Below are positions 5,080 through 40,111 of a stretch of DNA of 64,000 bases, piece by piece. Source of the stretch: Allorhodopirellula heiligendammensis (GTDB taxonomy: Bacteria; Planctomycetota; Planctomycetia; Pirellulales; Pirellulaceae); NCBI RefSeq assembly GCF_007860105.1, contig NZ_SJPU01000001.1, positions 2,563,700 to 2,627,699 of the forward strand. Direction: 5' to 3'. Made by a program: the position numbers and the translations under genes. Positions within the stretch are counted from its first letter, which is position 1. Every line of letters begins with the position of its first letter. Below the pieces are notes generated by a model, which did not search any database, was not told where the DNA came from, and was given only the letters and a program-made list of their open reading frames with translations.

Positions 5080-6288
5080 ATGAGCGACACCAGCAATCCA
5101 GTCGAGCCGCTTTTCGACTCCGGCATTCGCGACAATCACCGTCGTGGAACAGTAGGTGATTTTCTGCAGCAACAAGCTTCTGCTGGATCAGAACTTTCGA
5201 TCGTTTCCGCGTATTTCACGATCTATGCCTACAAGGCACTTCAGTCGACGCTCGATTCCATCGGGCATCTCAACTTTCTGTTTGGCGAGCCAACGTTTGT
5301 CAGCCGGCTCGACCCGGACAAAAATCAAACCAAAGCGTTCACGCTACTGGACTCCCAACTTCATCTCAGCAACCGACTTCAGCAAAAGCTTGCCGCAAGG
5401 CAATGTGCAGATTGGATTCGCGACAAAGTTGAAATCCGAACCATTCGGCAGACCAATCTGTTGCATGGCAAGATGTATCACATCGATCGTGACGGCGTCG
5501 ACAACGCGATTTTGGGCAGCTCAAATTTCACGGTGCGTGGTTTGGGACTGGGCGCCGATGGCAACAACATTGAATTGAATCTGGTCGTTGATGGAAACCG
5601 AGACCGCCGCGAGCTGAAACAATGGTTCCTCGAATTATGGAACGATCCGCAGCTCGTCAAAGACGTCAAAGAAGACGTTATTCTTTTTCTTGAACGACTA
5701 TACGCAAATCAGAGCCCGCAGTTCGTTTACTACCTGACGCTATTCAAGCTGTTTCGTGACTACCTGGACGGCAATCTCGATGTCGACGAATCGCTCAACC
5801 GACTCGCGCTGCCTGACACAGATATCTGGAAGTCGCTCTTCTCATTCCAAAAGGATGGCGCCAAAGCCGCGATCAACAAGATCCTGCAATATAATGGCTG
5901 CATCTTGGCCGACAGCGTCGGGCTGGGGAAAACGTATACAGCTCTCGCGGTGATTAAGTATTTCGAGCTTCGTAACGAACGCGTTCTCGTGCTCTGTCCT
6001 AAGAAGCTTCGTCGCAACTGGACTGTTTACCAAGCCAACAGCCGTTTGAATCCGTTTACCGATGACCGATTTCGATTCGATGTACTGCATCACACCGATA
6101 TGTCACGCGATCGAGGTGAGTCCAATGGCATCGACCTTGCCGATATCAACTGGGGTGCGTACGACCTTGTCGTCATCGACGAATCCCACAATTCTCGCAA
6201 CAACGCTCAGGCTGTCCAACGGCCAGGGCGATTGCGACACAATAGGCAATATGGGACACTGAGTGAAGGTTCGAATTTGAGCTGTTGA
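5080..6288 (+). pseudogene. Truncated PLD-nuclease/SNF2-like helicase, cut by an IS
   Basis: The reading frame begins as a fusion of a phospholipase D-like nuclease and a superfamily 2 helicase. The PLD motif is H129-x-K131-x4-D136 with GSSN at 146-149. The helicase start shows Walker A DSVGLGKT (278-285) and a DEAH-like box DESH (367-370). Full-length proteins of this type run near 1,000 residues. Here native sequence stops at about residue 381, where the ISAs1-family element begins at 6224; the remaining codons to 6288 are IS sequence. Helicase motifs III-VI are missing and are not found past the IS. The PLD part could still fold. Such PLD-helicases are common in defence islands, in line with the divergent McrBC-like operon. 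Confidence 0.8.
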
Positions 6289-7472
6289 ATCGCAGCAGCT
6301 AGACGAATCCACTCGCCATGGAATTTTTTGATGGAACGCTCCGCTTCGCTGGTGGATCAACTTGGATATGTTACCGATCCGCGTCGAGGAGAACCAATTT
6401 ATCCTTTGGTCAATGTGTTGTTTATGATGATTTGCGGAGTCATTGCTGGGGCAGATGACTTTGTAGCGATCGCTAGGTTTGCCAACACCAAAAAGGAGTG
6501 GCTCGCAAAGTTCTTGGACATGTCCATGGGCGTTCCTTCACATGATCGATTCAACGCAATTCTAAATTCGATCAAACCCGAAGAGTTCGAGCCGATCCTC
6601 CTCGCGTGGATGACACAACTGCACAAGATCACTAACGGGCAAGTCATTGCAATCGACGGCAAGACACTGCGCCGAAGTTATGATCATGCCACTGGCAAAG
6701 CGGCCATCCATATGGTCAGTGCCTGGGCGACCGCGAATCACATCACTCTTGGTCAGACAGTCGTTGATGAGAAAAGTAACGAGATCACTGCGATTCCCAA
6801 ATTGCTGCAAATTATCGAGGTTTCGGGAGGTTTGGTCACCATCGACGCGATGGGATGCCAGACGGAAATCGCGGCAAAGATCATCGCTGAAGGCGCGGAC
6901 TACTGCTTGGCCGTTAAAGGAAACCAGCCAAAGCTTCATGAAGGAATCAAAGCATACTTTTTGGATCATCTTGAAGATGACTTCGCCAGAATCGATGTGA
7001 CGGAGCATCATACCCACGAAACCGCTCATGGGCGAATTGATGATCGCAGCTACTACACTTGTACTGTTCCCGATGATTTTCCCGATCGATCACGTTGGCA
7101 AGATCTCAAAGCGATCGGGATGTCGATCAACAACACTTCGCGCCGCAAAGGTGACGATATCGCAGTGAGATACTACATCATCAGCAAATTGCTTCCTGGA
7201 GAGGAATTTGCCGGAGCGGTGCGTGACCACTGGGGGATTGAAAATAGTTGCCACTGGCAGTTGGACGTGGCGTTTAGCGAAGATCAGTGTCGAGTTCGAA
7301 AGGGCCACGGCGATCAAAACTTAAGCACGCTCAGGCGGACAGCACTTAGCCTTTTGAAGCAAGAAAAGACCGCCAGGTGCGGAATCAAAAACAAGCGTCT
7401 GACCGCCGGATGGGACGACGACTACATGGAGAAAGTCGTTTTCAGTCGGTAAATCCCCGTGCAATCTCCCTG
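6224..7472 (+). mobile_element. ISAs1-family insertion sequence (1,249 bp)
   Basis: The ends are CAGGGCGATTGC at 6224-6235 and GCAATCTCCCTG at 7461-7472, which pair at 11 of 12 positions as terminal inverted repeats, and they enclose one intact transposase gene. The 8 bases outside each end (CCAACGGC on the left, TGCAGACT on the right) do not match, so there is no target duplication. The left flank is inside a helicase gene and the right flank is the start of a sulfatase, which points to a deletion or recombination using this element. Confidence 0.85.
6331..7452 (+). CDS. ISAs1-family transposase (DDE type)
   Basis: A 373-residue transposase of the ISAs1/H-repeat family. It starts with the DDE_Tnp_1-associated domain (LVDQLGYVTDPRRGEPIYPL) and continues into the DDE core with AIDGKTLRRSYD (first Asp), VTIDAMGCQTEIA (second Asp) and HWGIENSCHWQLDVAFSEDQ (Glu region). 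The length is normal and the frame is intact, so the element could still be mobile. A TTG one codon upstream is an alternative start. It lies inside the inverted repeats at 6224 and 7472. Confidence 0.92.
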   Translation: MERSASLVDQLGYVTDPRRGEPIYPLVNVLFMMICGVIAGADDFVAIARFANTKKEWLAKFLDMSMGVPSHDRFNAILNSIKPEEFEPILLAWMTQLHKITNGQVIAIDGKTLRRSYDHATGKAAIHMVSAWATANHITLGQTVVDEKSNEITAIPKLLQIIEVSGGLVTIDAMGCQTEIAAKIIAEGADYCLAVKGNQPKLHEGIKAYFLDHLEDDFARIDVTEHHTHETAHGRIDDRSYYTCTVPDDFPDRSRWQDLKAIGMSINNTSRRKGDDIAVRYYIISKLLPGEEFAGAVRDHWGIENSCHWQLDVAFSEDQCRVRKGHGDQNLSTLRRTALSLLKQEKTARCGIKNKRLTAGWDDDYMEKVVFSR

Positions 7473-9010
7473 TGCAGACTCCCTTCATAATATTTCTATT
7501 CACCATCCTACTCGGGATGCTTACCGTCAATGCATCCGCCCAGGGCTCCAAGCCCAACATCCTGATGATCATGGGTGATGATATTGGTTACTGGAATATC
7601 AGCTCTTTCCATAATGGCGTAATGGGATACGACACGCCAAACATCGATCGATTGGCTAAAGAAGGTGGCCGGCTGGTGACGTACTACGGCCAGCAAAGCT
7701 GTACCGCCGGACGCGCCGCTTTCATCACCGGTCAAACTCCATTTCGGACTGGACTCACCAAGGTCGGCATGCCCGGAGCCAAGCTAGGTATTCAACCGCA
7801 AGACGCAACCATCGCTGAAATGCTCAAGCCGCTTGGCTACATGACCGGACAGTTTGGAAAAAATCACCTCGGTGATCGCGATGAATTCCTCCCCACCGCG
7901 CACGGATTCGACGAATTCTTTGGCAACCTCTATCACCTGAATTCCGAGGAAGAGCCTGAGAACCCCGATTATCCCAAGAGCCCTGAGTTTCGGAAGAAAT
8001 TTGGCCCTCGCGGTGTCCTCAGCGCCACTGCGGACGGAAAGATCGAGGATACTGGGCCGTTGACGAAAAAGCGAATGGAAACGATCGACGAAGAAGTGCT
8101 TGCTAAGGCTAAAGATTTTCTCGATCGTGCGACAGAGGCCGACAAGCCATTTTTCTGCTGGTTCAACACAACACGCATGCACAATTTCACGCATGTGAAG
8201 GAGGAAAATCTCGGCAAGACTGGCCTCGGCTTCTACGCCGACGGCATGGTCGAGCATGACGCCCTTGTCGGCCAACTTCTTGACTACGTCGATAAGCTGA
8301 AACTAACCGAAAACACCATCGTCATCTACACAACTGACAATGGACCCATGGTTTGTCTTTATCCCGATTCCGCCACGACACCTTTTCGTGGGGAGAAGAA
8401 TACGAATTGGGAAGGCGGCTGGCGCGTGCCCGCGCTGGTACGCTGGCCCGGTACCGTGAAGCCAGGCACCGTTTACCGCGATATCGTCTCCGGTGAAGAT
8501 TGGTTCCCAACCCTACTTCGGGCAGCCGGAATTGCGGATGTCAAGGAGCAGTTGCTGAAGGGCATGACCGCCGGCGAAAAGACATTCAAAGTACATCTGG
8601 ATGGTTACGACCAAACCGACTATTTGTCCGGAAAATCTGACAAGAGTGCTCGAGAGGAATTCTTTTACTTTAGTGCCGAAGGCGACCTAATGGCAGTTCG
8701 TCACGGCCGGGTAAAAGCCCACTTCCTCATTCAGGAACATACTGGCCTTGACGTGTGGCGGATGCCGCTGACCACGCTGACCGCACCACTTTTCTTTGAC
8801 CTCGAAGTCGATCCCGGCGAACGTGGCATGGAAGGCGATAATTACAACGACTGGTGGTATCGACGCGCCTATCTGGCGGTGCCTCTACAAAACATAGTTG
8901 GGAAAATGATGGAGACGTTCAAAGAATTTCCTCCTCGACAAAAGTCAGCTAGCTTTACCATTGAACAAGCCAGCGATGCGCTCAGTCAACCGGGTTCAAC
9001 TGGTAAGTAA
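7472..9010 (+). CDS. Sulfatase (arylsulfatase-type), start codon made by IS junction
   Basis: A 512-residue formylglycine-dependent sulfatase, expected outside the cytoplasm. The first ~23 residues are a signal peptide (FIIFLFTILLGMLTVNASAQ). Metal ligands lie in GDDIGY. The residue modified to formylglycine is Cys77 in CTAGR (77-81), a variant of CxPxR with Ala at the Pro position. TTDNG near residue 290 fits the second metal-binding segment. The start is a GTG whose first base is the last base of the ISAs1 element, so the original start codon and promoter were lost and expression would have to come from the IS or its flank. An ATG at 7517 would remove most of the signal peptide. The frame is otherwise intact. 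The substrate is unknown; sulfated polysaccharide is likely from family and context. Confidence 0.85.
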   Translation: MQTPFIIFLFTILLGMLTVNASAQGSKPNILMIMGDDIGYWNISSFHNGVMGYDTPNIDRLAKEGGRLVTYYGQQSCTAGRAAFITGQTPFRTGLTKVGMPGAKLGIQPQDATIAEMLKPLGYMTGQFGKNHLGDRDEFLPTAHGFDEFFGNLYHLNSEEEPENPDYPKSPEFRKKFGPRGVLSATADGKIEDTGPLTKKRMETIDEEVLAKAKDFLDRATEADKPFFCWFNTTRMHNFTHVKEENLGKTGLGFYADGMVEHDALVGQLLDYVDKLKLTENTIVIYTTDNGPMVCLYPDSATTPFRGEKNTNWEGGWRVPALVRWPGTVKPGTVYRDIVSGEDWFPTLLRAAGIADVKEQLLKGMTAGEKTFKVHLDGYDQTDYLSGKSDKSAREEFFYFSAEGDLMAVRHGRVKAHFLIQEHTGLDVWRMPLTTLTAPLFFDLEVDPGERGMEGDNYNDWWYRRAYLAVPLQNIVGKMMETFKEFPPRQKSASFTIEQASDALSQPGSTGK

Positions 9011-9124
9011 ACATCGATTTATGTCAAGGCCCTAATCGGCGGGAAATGTTGTGGGGAAATGTTTCAAGTCACAGATATCTCAGTCACATACAAATTCGAA
9101 TCTCAACTGCGTAGGTCAACGGTT

Positions 9125-11455
9125 ATGTTTCGCTCATTTCTCGTCGCAATATCGCTGGCACTATATTCTACGGCAAGTTTGGTGGCTGACGAACCAGACC
9201 GCATTGAGCTGCCGATTCCGCTATCGCCTTTTGAGGGCAAGATTGGGAAAACGTATCAGGATTCCGTTCCCGATTGGCAGGATCCCGTCTCTGCTCCCGA
9301 AGGCGCGCCCAACGTGATCGTGATCCTTTTAGACGACGTCGGTTTCGGCCAAACCTCAACGTTCGGAGGCCTGATCCCGACTCCGAATCTCGACCAGCTC
9401 GCATCGGAAGGCCTCCGTTACAACCGCTTCCACACCACCGCCATCTGTGGTCCCTCTCGCGCCGCTTTGTTGACCGGCCGCAACCACCACGACGCTGGCA
9501 GCGGTTTCTTGATGGAGTGGGCCACCGGTTATCCGAACTACTCGACCATGATCCAGCCGACGACTGCAACGATCGGCCGAGTACTCAAAGGCAACGGCTA
9601 CGCGACGTAGTGGTACGGAAAGAATCACAACACGCCTGACTGGGAGACGACCGTTTCGGGGCCGTTTGACCGTTGGCCGACCGGGATGGGATTTGACTAT
9701 TTCTACGGATTCAATTCCGGTGAGACACACCAGTTTTACCCAGTGCTGTTTGAGAACACGGTTCCGGTCGAGCCGCAGACCACGCCCGAGGAAGGTTATC
9801 ATTTCACGACGGACATGGTCGATCGCGCGATTGCTCGGATGAAACTCTCCAAGTCGGTCGCGCCTGACAAACCATTCTTCATGTACTTTGCCCCGGGTGC
9901 AATGCATGCCCCGCACCACGTGACTGCCGAGTGGCGTGACAAGTTCAAGGGCAAGTTCGACATGGGGTGGGAAAAGTATCGCGAGATCGTCTACAAAAAC
10001 CAGCTCGAGATGGGAATCATCCCACCCGGGACCAAGCTCACTCCGCGGCCCGATTGGGTTCCGGCTTGGGACAGCCTGAGCGCGGAGCAGAAAACACTCT
10101 ACAACGCTCTGTTTGAAAACTTTGCGGGCTTTTTCGCGCACACCGATCATGAAGTGGGGCGGCTGCTCGATGCAGTGAAGGAACTTCCTGACGCAGACAA
10201 CACGCTCGTGATGTACATCGTCGGTGACAATGGAGCCTCGTCCGAAGGCGGACCCGATGGCACGCTGAATGAGATCAAGGGACTCAACGGAATCAACACG
10301 CCGATCGGGGACATCATCAAGAACCTGGATAAGCTCGGCGGCCCTGAATCGGAACCGCACTATCCGGTTGGCTGGGCCTGGGCCGGCAACACGCCATTTC
10401 AATGGGTCAAGCAAGTCGCGTCGCACCTCGGCGGCAGCCGCAATCCGATGGTTGTCTCTTGGCCGGCAATGATTGAGCACGACGACAAACCGCGCGATGC
10501 GTTTTTGCACCTGGTTGACGTCGTCCCAACGATTTTAGAGGCAGCCAGCATCCCGATGCCTGACACGGTCGATGGTGTCGACCAAAAACCACTCGCCGGA
10601 AAGTCGTTCTTAAGTAGTTTCTCCGATGCGAGTTTCCAGGGCCGTGACGAGCAGTACTTCGAGGTACTCAGCAATCGTTCCATCTACGAAGACGGATGGA
10701 AAGCGAATGCACAGCACACTTTGCCATGGCGTCAGGATCTCGCACCGGGAAACTGGGACAAGGACCATTGGGAACTCTACAACTTGGACAAGGATTTCTT
10801 GGAAGCCAATGATCTCGCTGCCGAGATGCCCGACAAACTTGCCGCTATGAAAACGAAGTTTGACGAAGCCGCGGAGAAGTACAGCGTCTATCCGCTCGAC
10901 GACCGTGGTGCCGCTCGACTTGCTATTCCGAAGCCGCCTGTACCGGGAGCGAAAGAAGGATCTAAGACGTTTACCTACTTCACCGGTGCGATTCGAATCG
11001 CCGAGCCCGCCGCGCCGCCGATGAAAAACAATTCCTGGACCGTTAACGCGGCAATTAGCACCGAGGGAACGAAGACCAATGGCGTTATTATGGGCTTCGG
11101 TGGCGTGGCTGCCGGGATCGTTCTGTACGTCAAAGAAGGCGTTCCTGTTTTTGACTACAACTACTTTGAAGAGCACACCGTCGTGAAAAGCAGCAAGGCA
11201 CTTGACTCGGGTGAAGCGACCGTCGAAGTAGACTTCGACTATGCCGGAGGCGGTGCTGGCAAGGGCGCGACGATCACGCTAAAGGTCAATGGCGAAACTG
11301 TAGGCAAAGGGGAAATGGATGCGACTGTCGGCGGCCGTTTCGGCATCGATACGTTTGGCATCGGTGAAGACAGTGGGCAACCGGTTACCAATGCCTACAA
11401 AGCCCCATTCAAGTTCACTGGCGAGATCGACAAAGTCACCATCGAAATCAAGTAA
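9125..11455 (+). pseudogene. Sulfatase interrupted by an in-frame amber codon
   Basis: A sulfatase frame of 776 residues broken by one TAG at 9608-9610 (codon 162), with homology continuing in the same frame on both sides. The signal peptide begins at the ATG at 9125 ([19 protein letters not shown]). The formylglycine site is Cys108 in CGPSR (108-112); [10 protein letters not shown] gives the later metal-binding segment. The last ~150 residues form the beta-rich C-terminal domain common in large arylsulfatases ([20 protein letters not shown]). Relatives usually read YATAW or YATSW where this gene has YAT-stop-W, so one base change such as TCG to TAG explains the break. The second part could start at an ATG at 9686 but would lack the active site. 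No other lesions are seen, so the change looks recent. Confidence 0.8.
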
Positions 11456-18697: not shown

Positions 18698-20033
18698 GGC
18701 TCATCCGACGGAAGCGTGCGCCGGGTTTGAAGTCGCGGAAGTTACGACGGATGGATAAAAAAGTGTGGACATGCCATCCTTCAAAGAGAATTCTCACATC
18801 TTCTTTGCAGGAACGTACATGTCCACCTCCTTGTTGTATCACTCTTTCGGCATTCGTGGCTACCGGCAGACTCGAATCGAGCCCACCGGAGGCGTTACAC
18901 GGTTCCATGTCCATCCAAATGAGAAGTCGATCTGCTGTTCCTCGTGCCAAAGCAGCAACGTGATCAAACGAGGCGTCACGCAACGCGAATTCAGGTGTTC
19001 GCCGATCGGATTGAAGCAGACCGTCATTGTCGGCACTTTGCCACGTCTGCAGTGCCGCGATTGCGGGGTCGTTCGTCAGATCAAGGTCGGCTTTGCCGAT
19101 GCTCGTCGTAGCTACACCAAGAACTGGGCCAACTACGCATTGCAGCTCACTCGCAGCATGACAATCAAAGACGTTGCCGATCTTCTCGGTGTCACATGGG
19201 ACGTGATCAAGGAAATCAAAAAAAACGATCTCAGGCGACGATTCGCCAATCCTTCCCTGAAAGACGTTCGGTGGATTGCGATCGACGAGATCTGCATCGG
19301 CAAAGGGCATCGCTACGTGACACTGGTAATGAACTTGGATAGTGGAGCGATTATCTTCGTTGGAGACGGGAAATCGGCTGAATCGCTGGTTCCATTTTGG
19401 AAACGCTTGGGGCGTCGGCGGCATCGAATCGAAGCGGTGGCAATGGACATGTCCTCGGCCTACATCTCGGCGGTGCGCGGGAACCTCCCCAAGGCCGACA
19501 TCGTCTTTGACCGCTTTCATGTGGCGAAGTTGATGAACGAGAAGCTGACCACGCTGCGTCGACAACTGTACCAAGAGGCGACGGCCGACGAGAAATCGGT
19601 GCTCAAGGGGAGCCGCTGGTTGCTGCTGAAGAACCCCGAGAATCTGAGCGAGGATCGGGACGAAGAGGCTCACTTGGCAGCGGCGCTGCAGCTCAATGAA
19701 CCGCTGGCCACGGGATACTATCTCAAAGAGGAGTTGCGATTGTTTTGGGGGCACACCTTTCGATGGCCTGCGCAGTTGTTCTTGCGGTCATGGTGCAGGC
19801 GAGCCACCGCGACGGGACTTTCACCATTGAAGACGATGGCCAAAACCCTGACGCGGCTTGAGGAAGGGCTGTTGAGTTATTTCAAACACCGGATTTCTTC
19901 TGGACCGATGGAGGGCACCAATAACAAAATCAAGACGCTCCAACGACAATCCTACGGCATTCGTGATCGCGAATACTTCGAACTACTGCTTTATTCGCTC
20001 CATCAGAAAAAGTACGCTTTAGTCGGATGAGCC
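18698..20033 (+). mobile_element. ISL3-family insertion sequence (1,336 bp)
   Basis: Terminal repeats GGCTCATCCGAC (18698-18709) and GTCGGATGAGCC (20022-20033) are perfect 12-bp inverted copies, and AAGCGT/ACGCTT just inside extends the match. It carries one intact transposase gene whose stop codon lies inside the right repeat. The near-perfect 8-bp target duplication shows simple insertion. It landed at the stop codon of an ECF sigma gene, separating it from its kinase. Confidence 0.9.
18819..20030 (+). CDS. ISL3-family transposase
   Basis: A 403-residue transposase. The N-terminus carries a zinc-ribbon-like Cys set (CCSSCQSSNVI and later LQCRDCG), then a HTH-like part (MTIKDVADLLGVTWDVIKEI). 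The DDE core has IAIDEICIGKGHRY, AVAMDMSSAYISAV, FDRFHVAKLMN and, near the end, GPMEGTNNKIKTLQRQSYGI, all standard for ISL3. AGGA eight bases upstream supports the ATG at 18819; the frame is open from 18765. The gene is full length, so the element may be active. Confidence 0.93.
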   Translation: MSTSLLYHSFGIRGYRQTRIEPTGGVTRFHVHPNEKSICCSSCQSSNVIKRGVTQREFRCSPIGLKQTVIVGTLPRLQCRDCGVVRQIKVGFADARRSYTKNWANYALQLTRSMTIKDVADLLGVTWDVIKEIKKNDLRRRFANPSLKDVRWIAIDEICIGKGHRYVTLVMNLDSGAIIFVGDGKSAESLVPFWKRLGRRRHRIEAVAMDMSSAYISAVRGNLPKADIVFDRFHVAKLMNEKLTTLRRQLYQEATADEKSVLKGSRWLLLKNPENLSEDRDEEAHLAAALQLNEPLATGYYLKEELRLFWGHTFRWPAQLFLRSWCRRATATGLSPLKTMAKTLTRLEEGLLSYFKHRISSGPMEGTNNKIKTLQRQSYGIRDREYFELLLYSLHQKKYALVG

Positions 20034-34771: not shown

Positions 34772-37700
34772 ATGAAAAATATTGACCTCGAAGTCCTCTC
34801 GAAGATCCTAGCCGGTGCATTTTTTGTTTTGACCTGGACGGCATCTCTGGCTCGGGCGGAAACCCCGACGCCTCCGTACGACGGCAGTTGGGAGTCATTG
34901 CAAGAAATGCCAGTGCCGGATTGGTTCGACGACGGTAAGATCGGCATCTTCATCCATTGGGGTCCCTATAGTGCGATTGGCTACCGCAAGGGAGGTCGCG
35001 GGTACGCGGAACATGTGCCGAAGATGATCTACGACGATCCAACGCACTATTACCCCTATATGAAACAGCGCTGGGGCGCCCATCCTCCGGAGTTTGGCTA
35101 CAAGGACATTATTCCTGAGTTCAAGGCGGAGAACTGGGATCCCGATCAGTGGGCTGCATTATTTGCTGAAGTTGGTGCAAAGTATGTGGTGTTGACGGCG
35201 GAACATCATGACGGTTGGGCTAACTGGGATTCGGATCTAACGCCGTGGAATTGCGTGGATATGGGACCGAAACGCGACTTGGTCGGCGATCTTGGAAAAG
35301 CGGTGCGAGCCAAAGGATTGAAGTATGCACCCTCCTACCACCGAGAACGCCATACTGGATTCTTTGCGAAAGAGAAGTATGTCGTCCATAGCGAGCCTCG
35401 GCCCGATATCGCCGAGGAGATTCGCCGCGTTCCTGAGGCGTCGATGCTTTACGGACCGGAGTTCAGCTACACCAAAAACTATGTGGATGACTATGTCGCC
35501 CGTTGGCAGGAGATTCAAGAAAAGTACCATCCGGATATGCTGTGGATGGACGACTTTCCCATCTACACCCGCGACGGCAATGAGGTTCGTAAGGGAGTCA
35601 TGCAGCCAGAGATCAAATACTTTGATGATCAGGTTCGAGGAATGATCACTGATTTCATGAACGATGGTGCCGCTCGCCGAGCAGATGTCTATGTCAATAA
35701 CAAGGGAGCGAATCGAAACTGGCCAGATGGCGTGGGGTGTCTTGAAAAGGATAATTTAAAACTCAGCGTGATCGGCCCCAAATGGCAGAGTTGCACGACT
35801 TTTGGCACCTCCTTTGGGTATTTAGAAAACGATCATTACAAGGACATCGAAAGTGTCATTCACGAAATGATCGAGGTGATTAGCCGCAATGGAAACTTTC
35901 TTGTTAACATCGGGCCGATGGCCGACGGAACGATTCCCCCGCCACAGCTGGAGCGACTGCGCGCGATGGGTGAGTGGTTGCGGATCAACGGGGCAGCGAT
36001 CTATGGAACCCGCTATTGGAAAGAGTCTGACCAGAACAACGAACGTCTGGCCTTTACCACCAAAGGAAAAAACCTGTACGCCATCAAGCTGGCCGAGCCG
36101 TCTGCACCCTTTGTCATCACGGGCACTGCAGGCTGGAACGAGGGACAAATAACATCGGTATCGCTTCTCGGCTCCGACTCGACCGTGAGCTGGCAGATGA
36201 CTCCGGCTGGATTGGAGGTGAATCCGCCTGCTGACTTGGGTGCAAGTCGGATGGCCTGGGCGTTTGAAATCGTCACCGATCGTGATCAGCATGTTCCAAA
36301 TGTGATTGAGAGCAACGCGACTGAAGCCTTGAAGGGCACCGGAGCGGTTGATCTCGAAGGGGGCGTAGAAAATTCACCCGCGGTGATTCCGCCACCTAGC
36401 GGCACCACGATTGAAGTGGAAACGGCTTCCTCCGTAAGTGGCTTAACAAACTTACCCGTTCCACCTGCGTCTGGAAGATCGGTTACGGCCAATCAAGAAA
36501 CCGGGCATGAAGAACTTGGGTCACTGGTGGATGGAGTGCTCGGTAGGAACTTTGGCCCGATTTTTGGAAACACAGTTCACAAAGGCGCCTACAAGATGGA
36601 CTTGGGAAGTATGCAATCGATCGCTGCCATCACGAGTTGGTCGTTCAACATGAAAGGATTTCGTGGGCCGCAGAAACTCACGCTCTACGGCAGCGACTCG
36701 TCTACGGATCCCGGTTGGGATTTATCTAAATTCACTGCGCTTGGTACGATTGATACCACCGGCACCAAGAAAGCGAGTTTCACCGCGGCATCTTTGCGTG
36801 GTATCGATGGGCAGGCGGTTGGGCGATTCCGCTGGATCGTGTGGGACGTTTCCCCCATCACGGGCCGAGGCGAAAAAACGGCTTTTCAAGAACTAGCTGT
36901 GGAATTGATTCATCCGCCGAGGCGGCCCAACATCCTGTACATTGTTGCGGACGATCAAGCGCCTTTTGACCTTAAAATATATAATCCGGATTCGGAGCTT
37001 GACACGCCGGTAATTGCCCAACTGGCTGCCGAAGGCATGGTGATCGATGGAGCCCATCAGATGGGCGCGTGGTGTTGCGGCGTATGTACTCCGTCGCGCC
37101 ATATGATCATGTCCGGTCGCACTCTTTGGCATGTCCCGGACAAACCGAAACTTGGTCGAAATCCGATCGCTTTGAATCCCCTGCATGTGCCACCGGACCT
37201 GGCCGATCACACCATGGCAGCGGTTTTTAATGCCGCGGGGTACGACACGATGCGAACCTGCAAGAAAGGTAATAGCTACGCTGCTGCAAACGCGAAGTTC
37301 ACGGTGGTTCATGATGCCGTCAAGCGAGGTGCCACTGATGAGTCAGGTAGCGCATGGCATGCGAAGCAGGTGCTCAACTATCTCGACCAACGTAAGAACT
37401 CCGATGACCAAGACCCATTTTTGATTTATTTCGGTTTTTCCCATCCTCACGATACCCGCGACGGGAAGCCTGAGCTGCTCGCTAAATATGGTGCCGTCGA
37501 TCATCGAGAGAAGAGTAGCCTCCCTCCGGCGAATCCCAACCAGCCGAAGCTTCCGCGCAACTATCTCCCCAAGCACCCATTCAATAACACGGACATGAAG
37601 GTGCGCGATGAGGTGAACGTCAGCGGAGTTTGGACCAACCGTGATGAGCGCACCATTCGTAACGAGTTGGGCCGCGAGTTCGCATGTAGCGAAAATATCG

Positions 37701-38437
37701 ACATACAGATCGGCGCAGTTTTAGAAAAGCTGAGGCAGATGGGTGAACTGGAGAATACCTATATCTTTTACACCTCCGACCATGGGATGGCGATCGGCAG
37801 GCACGGATTGCAGGGCAAGCAGAACCTCTACGAGCACACCTTTCGCGTTCCTTACGTGGTGAAGGGGCCCGGCATCAAACCAGGATCTCGTGCTGTCGGT
37901 AACATCTACCACCTCGATGCGCTCGCGACGCTATGCGAACTCGCTGGTATCGAATCGCCAGCGACGAGTGAAGGAATTAGCTTTAAGAAAGTGCTCGAAG
38001 GCAAACAGAATACGGTCCGCGACATTCTGTATGGCGCGTATTGCGGTGGTGCAAAACCTGGAATTCGTTGCGTCAAGAAGGGCGATTGGAAACTGATTCG
38101 CTATGAATCGGCCGAAGAAGGCGTGAGGGAAACCCAGCTGTTCAACCTGGCCGAAAACCCCGATGAGCTGCTGGCCGCACACCACCATCCCAACGTAATC
38201 GCGTTAACCGGCTACACACCAACTTCCCACCAAGTCAATCTCTCCAGTGATCCGAATTACGCTGACAAGCTTCATGAAATGGAGCAGATTCTGCTCGATG
38301 AAATGCGAAATCACTTTGATCCGTATCGCTTTTCCGGCCAACCGGATGATGCGTTGGATACAACCGACACTTCAAATCCCCCGGTAGGTGATAGCGTGCC
38401 GGCGAACAAGCATAATCGCGACCGGCTCGCCAAGTAG
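34772..38437 (+). CDS. GH29 alpha-L-fucosidase/sulfatase fusion
   Basis: A 1,221-residue exported enzyme with two catalytic parts. After a signal peptide (1-29, ending ARA) residues ~35-510 are a GH29 alpha-L-fucosidase: KIGIFIHWGPYSAIG, VVLTAEHHDGWANWDS, and MLWMDDF with Asp260 as the expected nucleophile. Residues ~560-710 look like an F5/8-type (discoidin) carbohydrate-binding module. Residues ~717-1200 are a sulfatase: PNILYIVADDQ (metal), formylglycine Cys772 in CTPSR, and YTSDHGMAIGRHG. Together they could remove sulfate and then fucose, or the reverse, from sulfated fucans such as fucoidan. The frame is intact with no stop or phase change. Neighbours include another sulfatase and a sugar-related group. 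The order of reaction and the exact linkage are inferred. Confidence 0.88.
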   Translation: MKNIDLEVLSKILAGAFFVLTWTASLARAETPTPPYDGSWESLQEMPVPDWFDDGKIGIFIHWGPYSAIGYRKGGRGYAEHVPKMIYDDPTHYYPYMKQRWGAHPPEFGYKDIIPEFKAENWDPDQWAALFAEVGAKYVVLTAEHHDGWANWDSDLTPWNCVDMGPKRDLVGDLGKAVRAKGLKYAPSYHRERHTGFFAKEKYVVHSEPRPDIAEEIRRVPEASMLYGPEFSYTKNYVDDYVARWQEIQEKYHPDMLWMDDFPIYTRDGNEVRKGVMQPEIKYFDDQVRGMITDFMNDGAARRADVYVNNKGANRNWPDGVGCLEKDNLKLSVIGPKWQSCTTFGTSFGYLENDHYKDIESVIHEMIEVISRNGNFLVNIGPMADGTIPPPQLERLRAMGEWLRINGAAIYGTRYWKESDQNNERLAFTTKGKNLYAIKLAEPSAPFVITGTAGWNEGQITSVSLLGSDSTVSWQMTPAGLEVNPPADLGASRMAWAFEIVTDRDQHVPNVIESNATEALKGTGAVDLEGGVENSPAVIPPPSGTTIEVETASSVSGLTNLPVPPASGRSVTANQETGHEELGSLVDGVLGRNFGPIFGNTVHKGAYKMDLGSMQSIAAITSWSFNMKGFRGPQKLTLYGSDSSTDPGWDLSKFTALGTIDTTGTKKASFTAASLRGIDGQAVGRFRWIVWDVSPITGRGEKTAFQELAVELIHPPRRPNILYIVADDQAPFDLKIYNPDSELDTPVIAQLAAEGMVIDGAHQMGAWCCGVCTPSRHMIMSGRTLWHVPDKPKLGRNPIALNPLHVPPDLADHTMAAVFNAAGYDTMRTCKKGNSYAAANAKFTVVHDAVKRGATDESGSAWHAKQVLNYLDQRKNSDDQDPFLIYFGFSHPHDTRDGKPELLAKYGAVDHREKSSLPPANPNQPKLPRNYLPKHPFNNTDMKVRDEVNVSGVWTNRDERTIRNELGREFACSENIDIQIGAVLEKLRQMGELENTYIFYTSDHGMAIGRHGLQGKQNLYEHTFRVPYVVKGPGIKPGSRAVGNIYHLDALATLCELAGIESPATSEGISFKKVLEGKQNTVRDILYGAYCGGAKPGIRCVKKGDWKLIRYESAEEGVRETQLFNLAENPDELLAAHHHPNVIALTGYTPTSHQVNLSSDPNYADKLHEMEQILLDEMRNHFDPYRFSGQPDDALDTTDTSNPPVGDSVPANKHNRDRLAK

Positions 38438-38560: not shown

Positions 38561-40111
38561 CTACTGGGCTTCTTTGTTGAGTGGTTCCTCCACGACGAGG
38601 GCTGCTGGAAAATCGGCGGCATGCAATCCCTCCTTTTCTGCCCAGCGTTTGTTCTGTGATCCCCCAGCGGGTTGGTTCATAGGGATGTCCATGCCGCCTG
38701 CGTCGCCCAGCATCTCGTAGAGTCGCCGCTCCATTTTCTTAGCTACCGGTTGGAACTGCGGATCAGCGATCAAGTTGCGTGTCTCACCTGGATCTGCTTG
38801 GATGTCATACAGTTCGTCCACATCCCATAAGCCGTAGTAACTGATGTATTTGTACTGGTCACCGCGGAGTGCGAACTGCGTTGGGGTCTGCGGGAAATTC
38901 TTTTCCCAATAGTAGACATACAGAAAATAGTCACGCCATTTGCTATCCTTCGAATTGGGAAGATCAAGAAAGCTCATTCCATCCATGTAGTCGGGTGTCT
39001 GCAATCCTGCAGCGTGCATGACCGTGGGGCCAATGTCGATATTGCCGATCATATCTTCCACCACGGTACCGCCTTGGTATAGCTCGGGACACTGCATCAT
39101 CATTGGAACTCGCATAGATGCGTCGTAAGAAACCCGCTTGTCGATCAATCCATGTTCGCCCCACATGAAACCGTTATCTCCCATGTAGATAACTAGCGTT
39201 GAATCGTAGAGTCCCATCTCTTTCAATTGATTGAGCACGCGGCCAACGCTATCGTCGACGCCCAAGAGTGTTTCGCAGTACCGGCGGTAGAGGTAGTCGA
39301 TCCCTTTGTCGCTGTGGTAGGGGAAGTCGATCCCATGCCAGCTGTTGCGTTGGTCGCGAACCCAGCGTGGTGCGTTGCTTGCAGCGGTGACGCCCTCGCC
39401 ACGCGGCAGAAAGCTGAGGTCCTCGTCTGCGTAGGCACCTTTGTCTTGGTCGGCGGGGGTGAAGTTGGCATGCACCGCTTTGTGCGACAGATACAGAAAG
39501 AAGGGTTTGTCCGAGGTCTGCTGTTCCTTCATCCAGTCGATCGCGTAGTCAGTCAATTCTTCGGTGATGTATCCCTTTTGTTTCACGCGTTTACCGTCGA
39601 CATTGAGCGTGTAGTCGGGGTGGGGTGGCCAGTATTGGCCCTGGCCGCGAAAGCTCACCCAGTGATCGAACCCAGGCCGCGGGTTATCATGGCTGCCTCC
39701 CATGTGCCATTTGCCAATGAAGGCGGTCGAATATCCGGCTTGCTGAAGGTATTCCGGAAAGAACCGAGTTCCGTCTGGCACAAGACGGTTGTTGTCGATC
39801 ACCCGGTGTTTATGAGTGTACAGACCAGTCAAGATGGAAGCGCGACTTGGTGAACAAAGCGACGTGGTGACGAACGAGTTTTTTAGGTGGACACCATTAG
39901 CGGCGATCGAATCCAGATTGGGGGTTTGGAGAAAGGGGTGATTCATGAACCCCATGGTGTCGTAGCTATGATCGTCGGTGAGAATGAAGACCACGTTGCG
40001 CGGCTTGACCCCGGCGCGCTTGCCCACGGCGGGAAGGTCTGCTGCCGAGCCGCTCAGTGGAATCGACAGTAAGAGAACAATCGTCAAAATCTGGGTCAGT
40101 CGCGTGCGCAT
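38561..40111 (-). CDS. Exported sulfatase (S1 family)
   Basis: A 516-residue sulfatase with a signal peptide (TQILTIVLLLSIPLSGSAA). Metal ligands lie in FILTDDHSYDT (Asp46-Asp47), and the formylglycine site is Cys86 in CSPSR (86-90). Further landmarks are GKWHMGG and YMGDNGFMWGEHGL. The compact layout with FDHWVSFRGQGQYWPP near residue 150 resembles the N-acetylglucosamine-6-sulfatase-like and heparan-type sulfatases, but the substrate is not settled. It is convergent with the fucosidase-sulfatase gene, with only ~120 bases between stops, and divergent from PhyH. All conserved segments are present, so it should be active. Confidence 0.9.
   Translation of the reverse strand: MRTRLTQILTIVLLLSIPLSGSAADLPAVGKRAGVKPRNVVFILTDDHSYDTMGFMNHPFLQTPNLDSIAANGVHLKNSFVTTSLCSPSRASILTGLYTHKHRVIDNNRLVPDGTRFFPEYLQQAGYSTAFIGKWHMGGSHDNPRPGFDHWVSFRGQGQYWPPHPDYTLNVDGKRVKQKGYITEELTDYAIDWMKEQQTSDKPFFLYLSHKAVHANFTPADQDKGAYADEDLSFLPRGEGVTAASNAPRWVRDQRNSWHGIDFPYHSDKGIDYLYRRYCETLLGVDDSVGRVLNQLKEMGLYDSTLVIYMGDNGFMWGEHGLIDKRVSYDASMRVPMMMQCPELYQGGTVVEDMIGNIDIGPTVMHAAGLQTPDYMDGMSFLDLPNSKDSKWRDYFLYVYYWEKNFPQTPTQFALRGDQYKYISYYGLWDVDELYDIQADPGETRNLIADPQFQPVAKKMERRLYEMLGDAGGMDIPMNQPAGGSQNKRWAEKEGLHAADFPAALVVEEPLNKEAQ

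Follow-up and report, generated by a model that had tools for sequence, protein, structure and literature searches.

A single-chain GH29 glycosidase and S1 sulfatase from Allorhodopirellula heiligendammensis suggests repeated joining of one GH29 clade to different sulfatases, probably for sulfated fucose-rich glycans

Proteins that unite a glycosidase with a sulfatase have been described in bacteria. P36 of Formosa agariphila carries an exo-glycosidase (a GH78 alpha-L-rhamnosidase) and an S1_25 exo-sulfatase in one chain, and its halves are reported to act consecutively on the terminal residue, sulfatase first and glycosidase second (PMC8511951). N. ulvanivorans is reported to have the GH78-S1_25 pairing as well (PMC8360166). 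In two planctomycetes from Porphyra (P1 and P2), 34 and 21 sulfatase genes, respectively, were called multi-domain by a length above 600 residues; according to the available sections of that paper, the commonest partners are glycoside hydrolase domains and hypothetical ones, and gene fusion is given as the origin (PMC4807772). Here we analysed a 64,000-nucleotide stretch of the A. heiligendammensis genome (contig NZ_SJPU01000001.1, positions 2,563,700 to 2,627,699, called the window throughout), in which a single open reading frame (ORF) joins an N-terminal GH29 glycosidase to a C-terminal S1 sulfatase through a middle module. On balance, we favour the reading that this protein is a bifunctional exo-sulfatase/exo-alpha-L-fucosidase for a sulfated fucose-rich (fucoidan-type) glycan, secreted or periplasmic, with the sulfatase acting first.

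The fusion frame begins with an ATG at 34772, its stop codon ends at 38437 and it contains no internal stops. Its features, and the gene that adjoins it, are given below in window coordinates.

34772..38437, + strand: fusion ORF, GH29 - middle module (MID) - S1 sulfatase (SULF), 1221 residues (ORF list, Pfam)
34772..34858, + strand: putative Sec-type signal peptide, residues 1-29 (by eye: positive N-terminus, hydrophobic stretch, ...SLARA/ET)
34862..35992, + strand: GH29 catalytic domain, residues 31-407 (Pfam PF01120, 1.6e-89; 7snk, 2.4e-60)
35549..35551, + strand: codon of D260, catalytic nucleophile (aligned to the D264N mutant 7lnp)
35744..35746, + strand: codon of E325 in CLEKDN, putative acid/base (alignment)
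36029..36268, + strand: Fucosidase_C, residues 420-499 (Pfam, 7.1e-06)
36302..36919, + strand: middle module, residues 511-716, conserved core 544-711, probably F5/8-CBM32-like (profiles, weak model)
36926..37951, + strand: S1 sulfatase domain, residues 719-1060 (Pfam PF00884, 1e-32)
37085..37099, + strand: CTPSR formylglycine motif, residues 772-776, with C772 (sequence)
37796..38197, + strand: SGSH_C, sulfatase C-terminal subdomain, residues 1009-1142 (Pfam, 3.7e-14)
38357..38434, + strand: C-terminal tail, residues 1196-1221, with low conservation (23% identity to Stieleria tagensis)
38561..40111, - strand: stand-alone sulfatase adjoining the fusion, tail to tail (ORF list, Pfam)

An intact single frame with both enzymes had been proposed from the letters and ORF translations (hereafter the sequence-only reading), and this was borne out: the ORF runs unbroken through both halves, and Pfam finds both catalytic families. 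Alpha_L_fucos scored 301.2 bits against a curated cut-off of 25.2, and Fucosidase_C, Sulfatase and SGSH_C likewise exceeded their curated cut-offs; NCBIfam returned sulfatase matches only, each under its cut-off. Asp260 in MLWMDDF and CTPSR at 772 were located where the same reading had placed them. MLWMDD begins at residue 256, so that D260 lies within the motif, and it aligns with the position mutated in the Bacteroides plebeius GH29 D264N structure (7lnp). E325 aligned with a Glu of the B. plebeius enzyme, and its CLEKDN motif was present in 8/8 GH29-sulfatase fusions. CTPSR, which lies in the PF00884 domain, follows the activation motif C/S-x-P/A-x-R. The N-terminal segment suggests that the protein is exported, to the periplasm or beyond. 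Structure prediction of the interface, proposed earlier, did give a model of 1186 residues, from a shallow 21-row alignment, at a predicted local distance difference test score (pLDDT) of 63 and a predicted template modelling score of 0.48, from which no interface can be claimed.

A related-locus search for the fusion yielded 25 loci. The locus of S. tagensis (L024; L060 was taken as the same locus), from a separate assembly, encodes 1221 residues in an identical GH29-module-sulfatase layout, and the order GH29-MID-SULF was seen in 5 ORFs, which answers the earlier call for other proteins of this architecture. Identity between the window and S. tagensis was 87% for GH29, 75% for the module and 87% for the sulfatase, and 82% at the nucleotide level. 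The ratio of nonsynonymous to synonymous substitution rates (NG86) was 0.078, 0.172 and 0.091 for the three parts and 0.82 for the last 26 residues. In this single species pair, purifying selection maintains both catalytic halves. As S. tagensis shares the 1221-residue architecture at this nucleotide identity and the ORF is unbroken, we consider a frame break or assembly artefact unlikely. The window genome, a 7.18-Mb assembly, holds 4 GH29 matches, and PF00884 matches it at 121 places, some of which are fragments of the same frame; its three other GH29s share 25-33% identity with the fusion GH29. Five sampled congeners were without the fusion in a search by module, which a module-less fusion would escape: in three (G091, G130, G141) it found a single module, at 45-47% identity, and in two (G045, G115) none. 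The distribution of the fusion is patchy, and horizontal transfer is possible.

To place the two halves among their relatives, we built a tree for each. Loci L005-L029 came from exact peptide patterns, which favours close relatives, and most others came via the module, which favours module carriers. The sulfatase tree held 68 of 128 domains (all 16 fused and the 52 nearest), and the GH29 tree held 48 rows, each with 300 or more aligned residues, a limit that removed short fragments such as L028. The 8 GH29-fused sulfatases fell into five clades: type A (the window, L060, L061), type B (L006), type C (L005), type D (L067, L068) and type E (L143). The sulfatase of R. maiorica L007, whose contig ends inside the module, is also of type A. 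The GH29-fused label required a minimum of 6 changes on the sulfatase tree, 5 of them forced by starred branches. A single clade for the 8 sulfatases was rejected, at a cost of 1879 log-likelihood units and a p-AU of 1.9e-92, on a quick tree, for a group named only after the tree was seen and with L143 on a long branch. Stand-alone relatives of the fused sulfatases showed 62-87% identity to type A and 78% to type B, but only 52-58% to types C and D; for type E the highest value was 43%. The fused GH29 domains all lay in one 30-row clade (support 99/96) that mixes 8 fused, 5 module-only and 17 stand-alone rows; here the fused label took 6 changes, 3 of them forced. When L028 was added, 15 of 18 stand-alone genes of this clade had a same-strand sulfatase ORF (at least 100 residues, some partial) within 3 kb. 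The three misses were L015 and L020, with none in the available piece, and L029, whose sulfatase lies at 5 kb. This pattern suggests that relatives of the window's bacterium joined this kind of GH29 to different sulfatases several separate times, and that the two reactions may belong together in the breakdown of sulfated seaweed sugars.

The module was present in each of the 8 fusions (incomplete in L143), a result that is partly built in, because 4 of them (L061, L067, L068, L143) were found through the module search. We counted module architectures with six profiles, those for GH29, module and sulfatase seeded from the window, those for beta-helix, PDZ and GDSL from L071 and L070, over 74 sources with 5 repeat loci removed; ORFs truncated by the end of a contig or of the fetched piece (L007, L022, L072, L081) entered the count with the domains that were visible. 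Iterated profiles found the module in 55 ORFs: beta-helix-PDZ-MID 27, GH29-MID-SULF 5, GH29-MID 5, MID-SULF 3, SULF-GH29-MID 3 (from 2 sulfatase clades), SULF-MID 2, beta-helix-PDZ-MID-SULF 2, SULF-MID-GDSL 1 and GH29-PDZ-MID 1. In the other 6 the six profiles detected only the module, one of these ORFs being cut by the fetch end; among the remaining five, Pfam detected a BSP peptidase in two and a GH92 in one. The single beta-helix protein tested, L071, matched 9rx2 (6e-33) and the GH141 protein BT1002 (5mqp, 6.6e-15), and reached Pfam GH141_M only under its cut-off. Endo-fucanases were reported in GH141 in 2025 (PMC12786026).

Several single proteins show how the module is combined. Wherever a GH141-like beta-helix and the module occur in one ORF (29/29, for example L071:8480-11461), a PDZ domain separates them; the GH29-PDZ-module protein L141 has a PDZ domain as well. 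L070:9130-13158 (1343 residues) unites sulfatase, module and GDSL esterase, a desulfating and possibly deacetylating fusion. L066:5730-10118 (1463 residues) carries a GH141-like beta-helix, PDZ, module and type-B sulfatase in a single chain. In L143:3132-6602, a SULF-GH29-module protein, the module match covers the final 54 residues (1103-1156 of 1157), possibly a truncation.

The sequence-only reading had called the module F5/8-type, a claim that we can follow in part. The window module (511-716) matched no Pfam family at E up to 10, and a Protein Data Bank profile search with the module alignment A1 gave no match at E up to 1. One of 10 module relatives reached F5_F8_type_C_2, at E 0.17, and the distant relative L119 touched the same family at E 0.005. 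A low-confidence module model (pLDDT 52, shallow 10-row alignment) matched the CBM32s 4a42 (7.3e-05) and 7d29 (4.5e-04) in Foldseek, as well as SUN domains, virus capsids and other beta-sandwiches. On these weak indications, an F5/8-CBM32-like fold is likely for the module. The module was present in 24/149 genomes of the window's family (E up to 1e-6), in 5/294 genomes drawn from its phylum (E up to 1e-8), the window genome being included in both, and in 15/288 genomes from the phylum of the Pontiellaceae genome G440. Distant members are attached to BSP peptidases, to a GH92 and to a HEAT-cytochrome protein, and the module superfamily is therefore broader than fucose. Tentatively, and with more doubt than conviction, we propose that the module is a shared 'socket', a domain not described before that would bind or dock specifically to fucoidan and into which the endo-fucanase-like beta-helix, the GH29 clade, exo-sulfatases of several clades and the GDSL esterase have each been fitted; with the fucosidase joined to sulfatases of at least five clades, one bound chain would carry out successive steps on one sulfated fucose end. 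Unrecognized by Pfam in the window, it is a candidate fucoidan-binding domain.

Fucose as the sugar would follow from genomic context, the GH29 domain alone being insufficient to name it. The second module gene of the window genome encodes a beta-helix-PDZ-MID protein in a plus-strand run (C1:2429975-2481366) that also holds an MFS transporter, L-fucose isomerase, a GH29, sulfatases, esterases and two GHL15 genes. One of these GHL15 proteins matches the endo-1,3-fucanase 9joc at 9.7e-99, a match that we take to be GH168, the GHL15 family itself being broader. A GH95 gene lies at C1:2540064 of the same genome. In G075 (L067) and in G011, the SULF-GH29-module fusion has a GHL15 gene at a distance of about 4.6 kb. 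Module and GHL15 occurred together in 13/149 family genomes (24 each, 3.9 expected, p 1.5e-6) and, counted by genera, in 6/68 (p 0.007), a comparison confounded by large carbohydrate-rich genomes that carry many such families, as is the porphyranase comparison below. The GH141-like partners of the module, the L-fucose isomerase and the endo-1,3-fucanase relative make a link to fucoidan likely.

A number of observations weigh against fucose. About 117 kb separate the window fusion from the fucose cluster, the sole sulfatase adjoining it in the window is on the opposite strand, and GHL15 was absent from the fusion genome G013 and from G106, which has a cut-off fusion. The module was raised in porphyranase-bearing genomes (3/6 genomes, p 0.053; 3/4 genera, p 0.012). 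The best solved matches of the GH29 half were the B. plebeius exo-alpha-L-galactosidase structures 7snk/7ljj (2.4e-60), with the T. maritima fucosidase ranked behind them. The sulfatase half also matched S1_11 structures, and it matched the exo-L-galactose-6-sulfatase 7lha at 2.8e-20 by single sequence and 3.5e-35 by profile. A Glu-Trp loop pair, scored by eye, was absent from 27/27 covered rows of the GH29 clade (3 uncovered) and present in 14/14 rows of a distant GH29 branch, in BpGH29 and in TmFuc; the window has the basic stretch GYRKGGRGY in its place. Since the clade is without this pair, its sugar may differ from plain fucose. The sister GH29 branch also lacked the pair in 4/4 rows, and the loss is therefore not special to the fusion clade. 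A His at the position of the Trp of the -1 subsite (W67 in TmFuc) was also considered and dropped because the alignment is ambiguous there.

These matches speak for an alternative that we think unlikely, in which the fusion is an exo-alpha-L-galactosidase with an L-galactose-6-sulfatase (or similar) for agar/porphyran-type red-algal galactans. Both halves match enzymes of that kind, the module is raised in porphyranase-bearing genomes, and the BpS1_11/BpGH29 pair is reported to act consecutively on porphyran (PMC12316285). However, fucosidases scored close behind the galactosidase (193 versus 208 bits), the sulfatase matches were weak and spread over many S1 subfamilies, and the window genome had no PF18206 match, while the other partners of the module and the cluster of its second gene indicate fucose. 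The activity on sulfated fucose ends proposed by the sequence-only reading keeps its likely link to fucoidan, with the reservation that the best solved GH29 is an exo-alpha-L-galactosidase.

The sulfatase half gave limited clues to its position of attack. In S1_25 sulfatases such as the fucoidan exo-3-O-sulfatase SWF4, a Gly is reported to replace the usual His (PMC6315715). Across our 128 sulfatase domains, the conserved-His column (GKWH) held His in 91 and Gly in 19. Type B has GKFG, and the best solved match of its L006 member was 6hr5 (2.3e-62), titled alpha-L-rhamnosidase/sulfatase (GH78), which we take to be P36 with its S1_25 half. The window's type A has CKKG, with the Gly present, and matched 6hr5 only weakly, as the best hit by single sequence (2.4e-22) and the sixth by profile. 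That the window sulfatase is a 3-O-sulfatase is a guess. For maturation, PF03781, a family broader than the true formylglycine-generating enzyme, gave 8 matches above cut-off in 7 frames of the genome.

In the exo-sulfatase/exo-fucosidase reading that we favour, the C-terminal S1 sulfatase, with formylglycine formed from C772, would take sulfate off the non-reducing-end residue, and the N-terminal retaining GH29 (nucleophile D260) would then release the desulfated residue as an alpha-L-fucoside. The middle module may anchor the chain on the polymer or keep the halves together. The order, sulfatase then fucosidase, is proposed by analogy with P36 and the B. plebeius pair; which sulfate would be removed, and binding by the module, are likewise predictions. 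Three relatives have the domains in reverse, and chain position therefore need not set reaction order. Given these three ORFs and the five sulfatase clades, the fusion by itself does not prove the fixed order of attack that the sequence-only reading took it to suggest.

Alternatively, the GH29 half may accept or prefer still-sulfated fucose, with the sulfatase acting on the released sugar or the next residue and the order reversed or unordered. The basic loop of the GH29 clade makes sulfate tolerance a live alternative, sulfatases of five clades on the same GH29 clade fit a fucosidase indifferent to one fixed sulfate, and the SULF-GH29-module order of 3 ORFs agrees with it. Nevertheless, P36 (PMC8511951) and BpS1_11/BpGH29 (PMC12316285) are both reported to desulfate first, the sister branch is equally without the Glu-Trp pair, and the residues that replace the pair depend on the alignment; we consider this scenario quite unlikely. 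Quite improbable, too, is that two co-transcribed neighbours became joined neutrally as the genome rearranged, with no functional advantage in being one chain: multi-domain sulfatases and gene fusion are reported as common in Planctomycetes (PMC4807772), GH29 alone, GH29-module and fusions coexist within the GH29 clade, and fusion is mechanistically easy because this clade usually lies near sulfatases already (15/18), but five sulfatase clades on one GH29 clade would seem to exceed one accident, even if the module in 8/8 fusions counts little, half of them having been found through it.

Other features of the window and genome concern sulfatases and mobile elements. At 9059-11455 (+), a sulfatase frame of 814 residues is broken by one in-frame TAG, and both pieces match PF00884; it looks like a decaying gene. 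Upstream of it are another sulfatase ORF, at 7472-9010, and an ORF for a transposase, at 6328-7452; the interval 5080-7452 (+) holds a PLD-nuclease/SNF2-ResIII ORF beside a DDE transposase. An ISL3-type transposase at 18765-20030 (+) adds to the mobile elements of the window. Elsewhere in the genome (G000), the frames C1:1755129-1758203 and C2:1567787-1570528, of 1230 and 1106 residues, have two sulfatase matches each. A two-sulfatase gene has been described (PMC4807772).

The fusion bears on how sulfated fucans are dismantled. Fucoidan degrades slowly, and to our knowledge it is mostly not established which of its sulfatases have to precede which glycosidases (in part after PMC12786026). Fusion singles out a particular sulfatase as the companion of a particular fucosidase, and the five fused kinds together may act on the same sugar end. 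The order of desulfation could therefore be tested directly by mutating single sites in this one protein.

We finally compared the fusion with the known systems. The BpS1_11 and BpGH29 enzymes of the B. plebeius porphyran locus resemble it in that an S1 exo-sulfatase is followed by a GH29 exo-enzyme (PMC12316285), and BpGH29 is the closest solved GH29 to its GH29 half; they differ in being two separate proteins and in their sugar, reported as L-galactose. In Wenyingzhuangia fucanilytica, SWF1 (S1_17) and SWF4 (S1_25) are reported as S1 exo-sulfatases on terminal fucose whose locus also encodes GH29 and GH95 enzymes (PMC6315715). The His-to-Gly change of SWF4 (KFG) is paralleled by GKFG in type B and CKKG in the window's type A, whereas SWF1 and SWF4 are separate proteins and the window sulfatase is without an S1_25 assignment. 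P36, likewise a single chain, has GH78 and not GH29, serves ulvan and not fucoidan, and represents one fusion type; the available sections of its sources mention no comparable module. Those of the P1 and P2 study name neither a GH29 pairing nor a shared module (PMC4807772). That study also tempers the sequence-only reading, which had GH29 enzymes and sulfatases usually cooperating as separate proteins: glycosidase-sulfatase fusions are not unusual in Planctomycetes. The GH29-sulfatase fusion, its repeated origin and the shared module were not found in the open-licence literature searched, as far as its available text goes.

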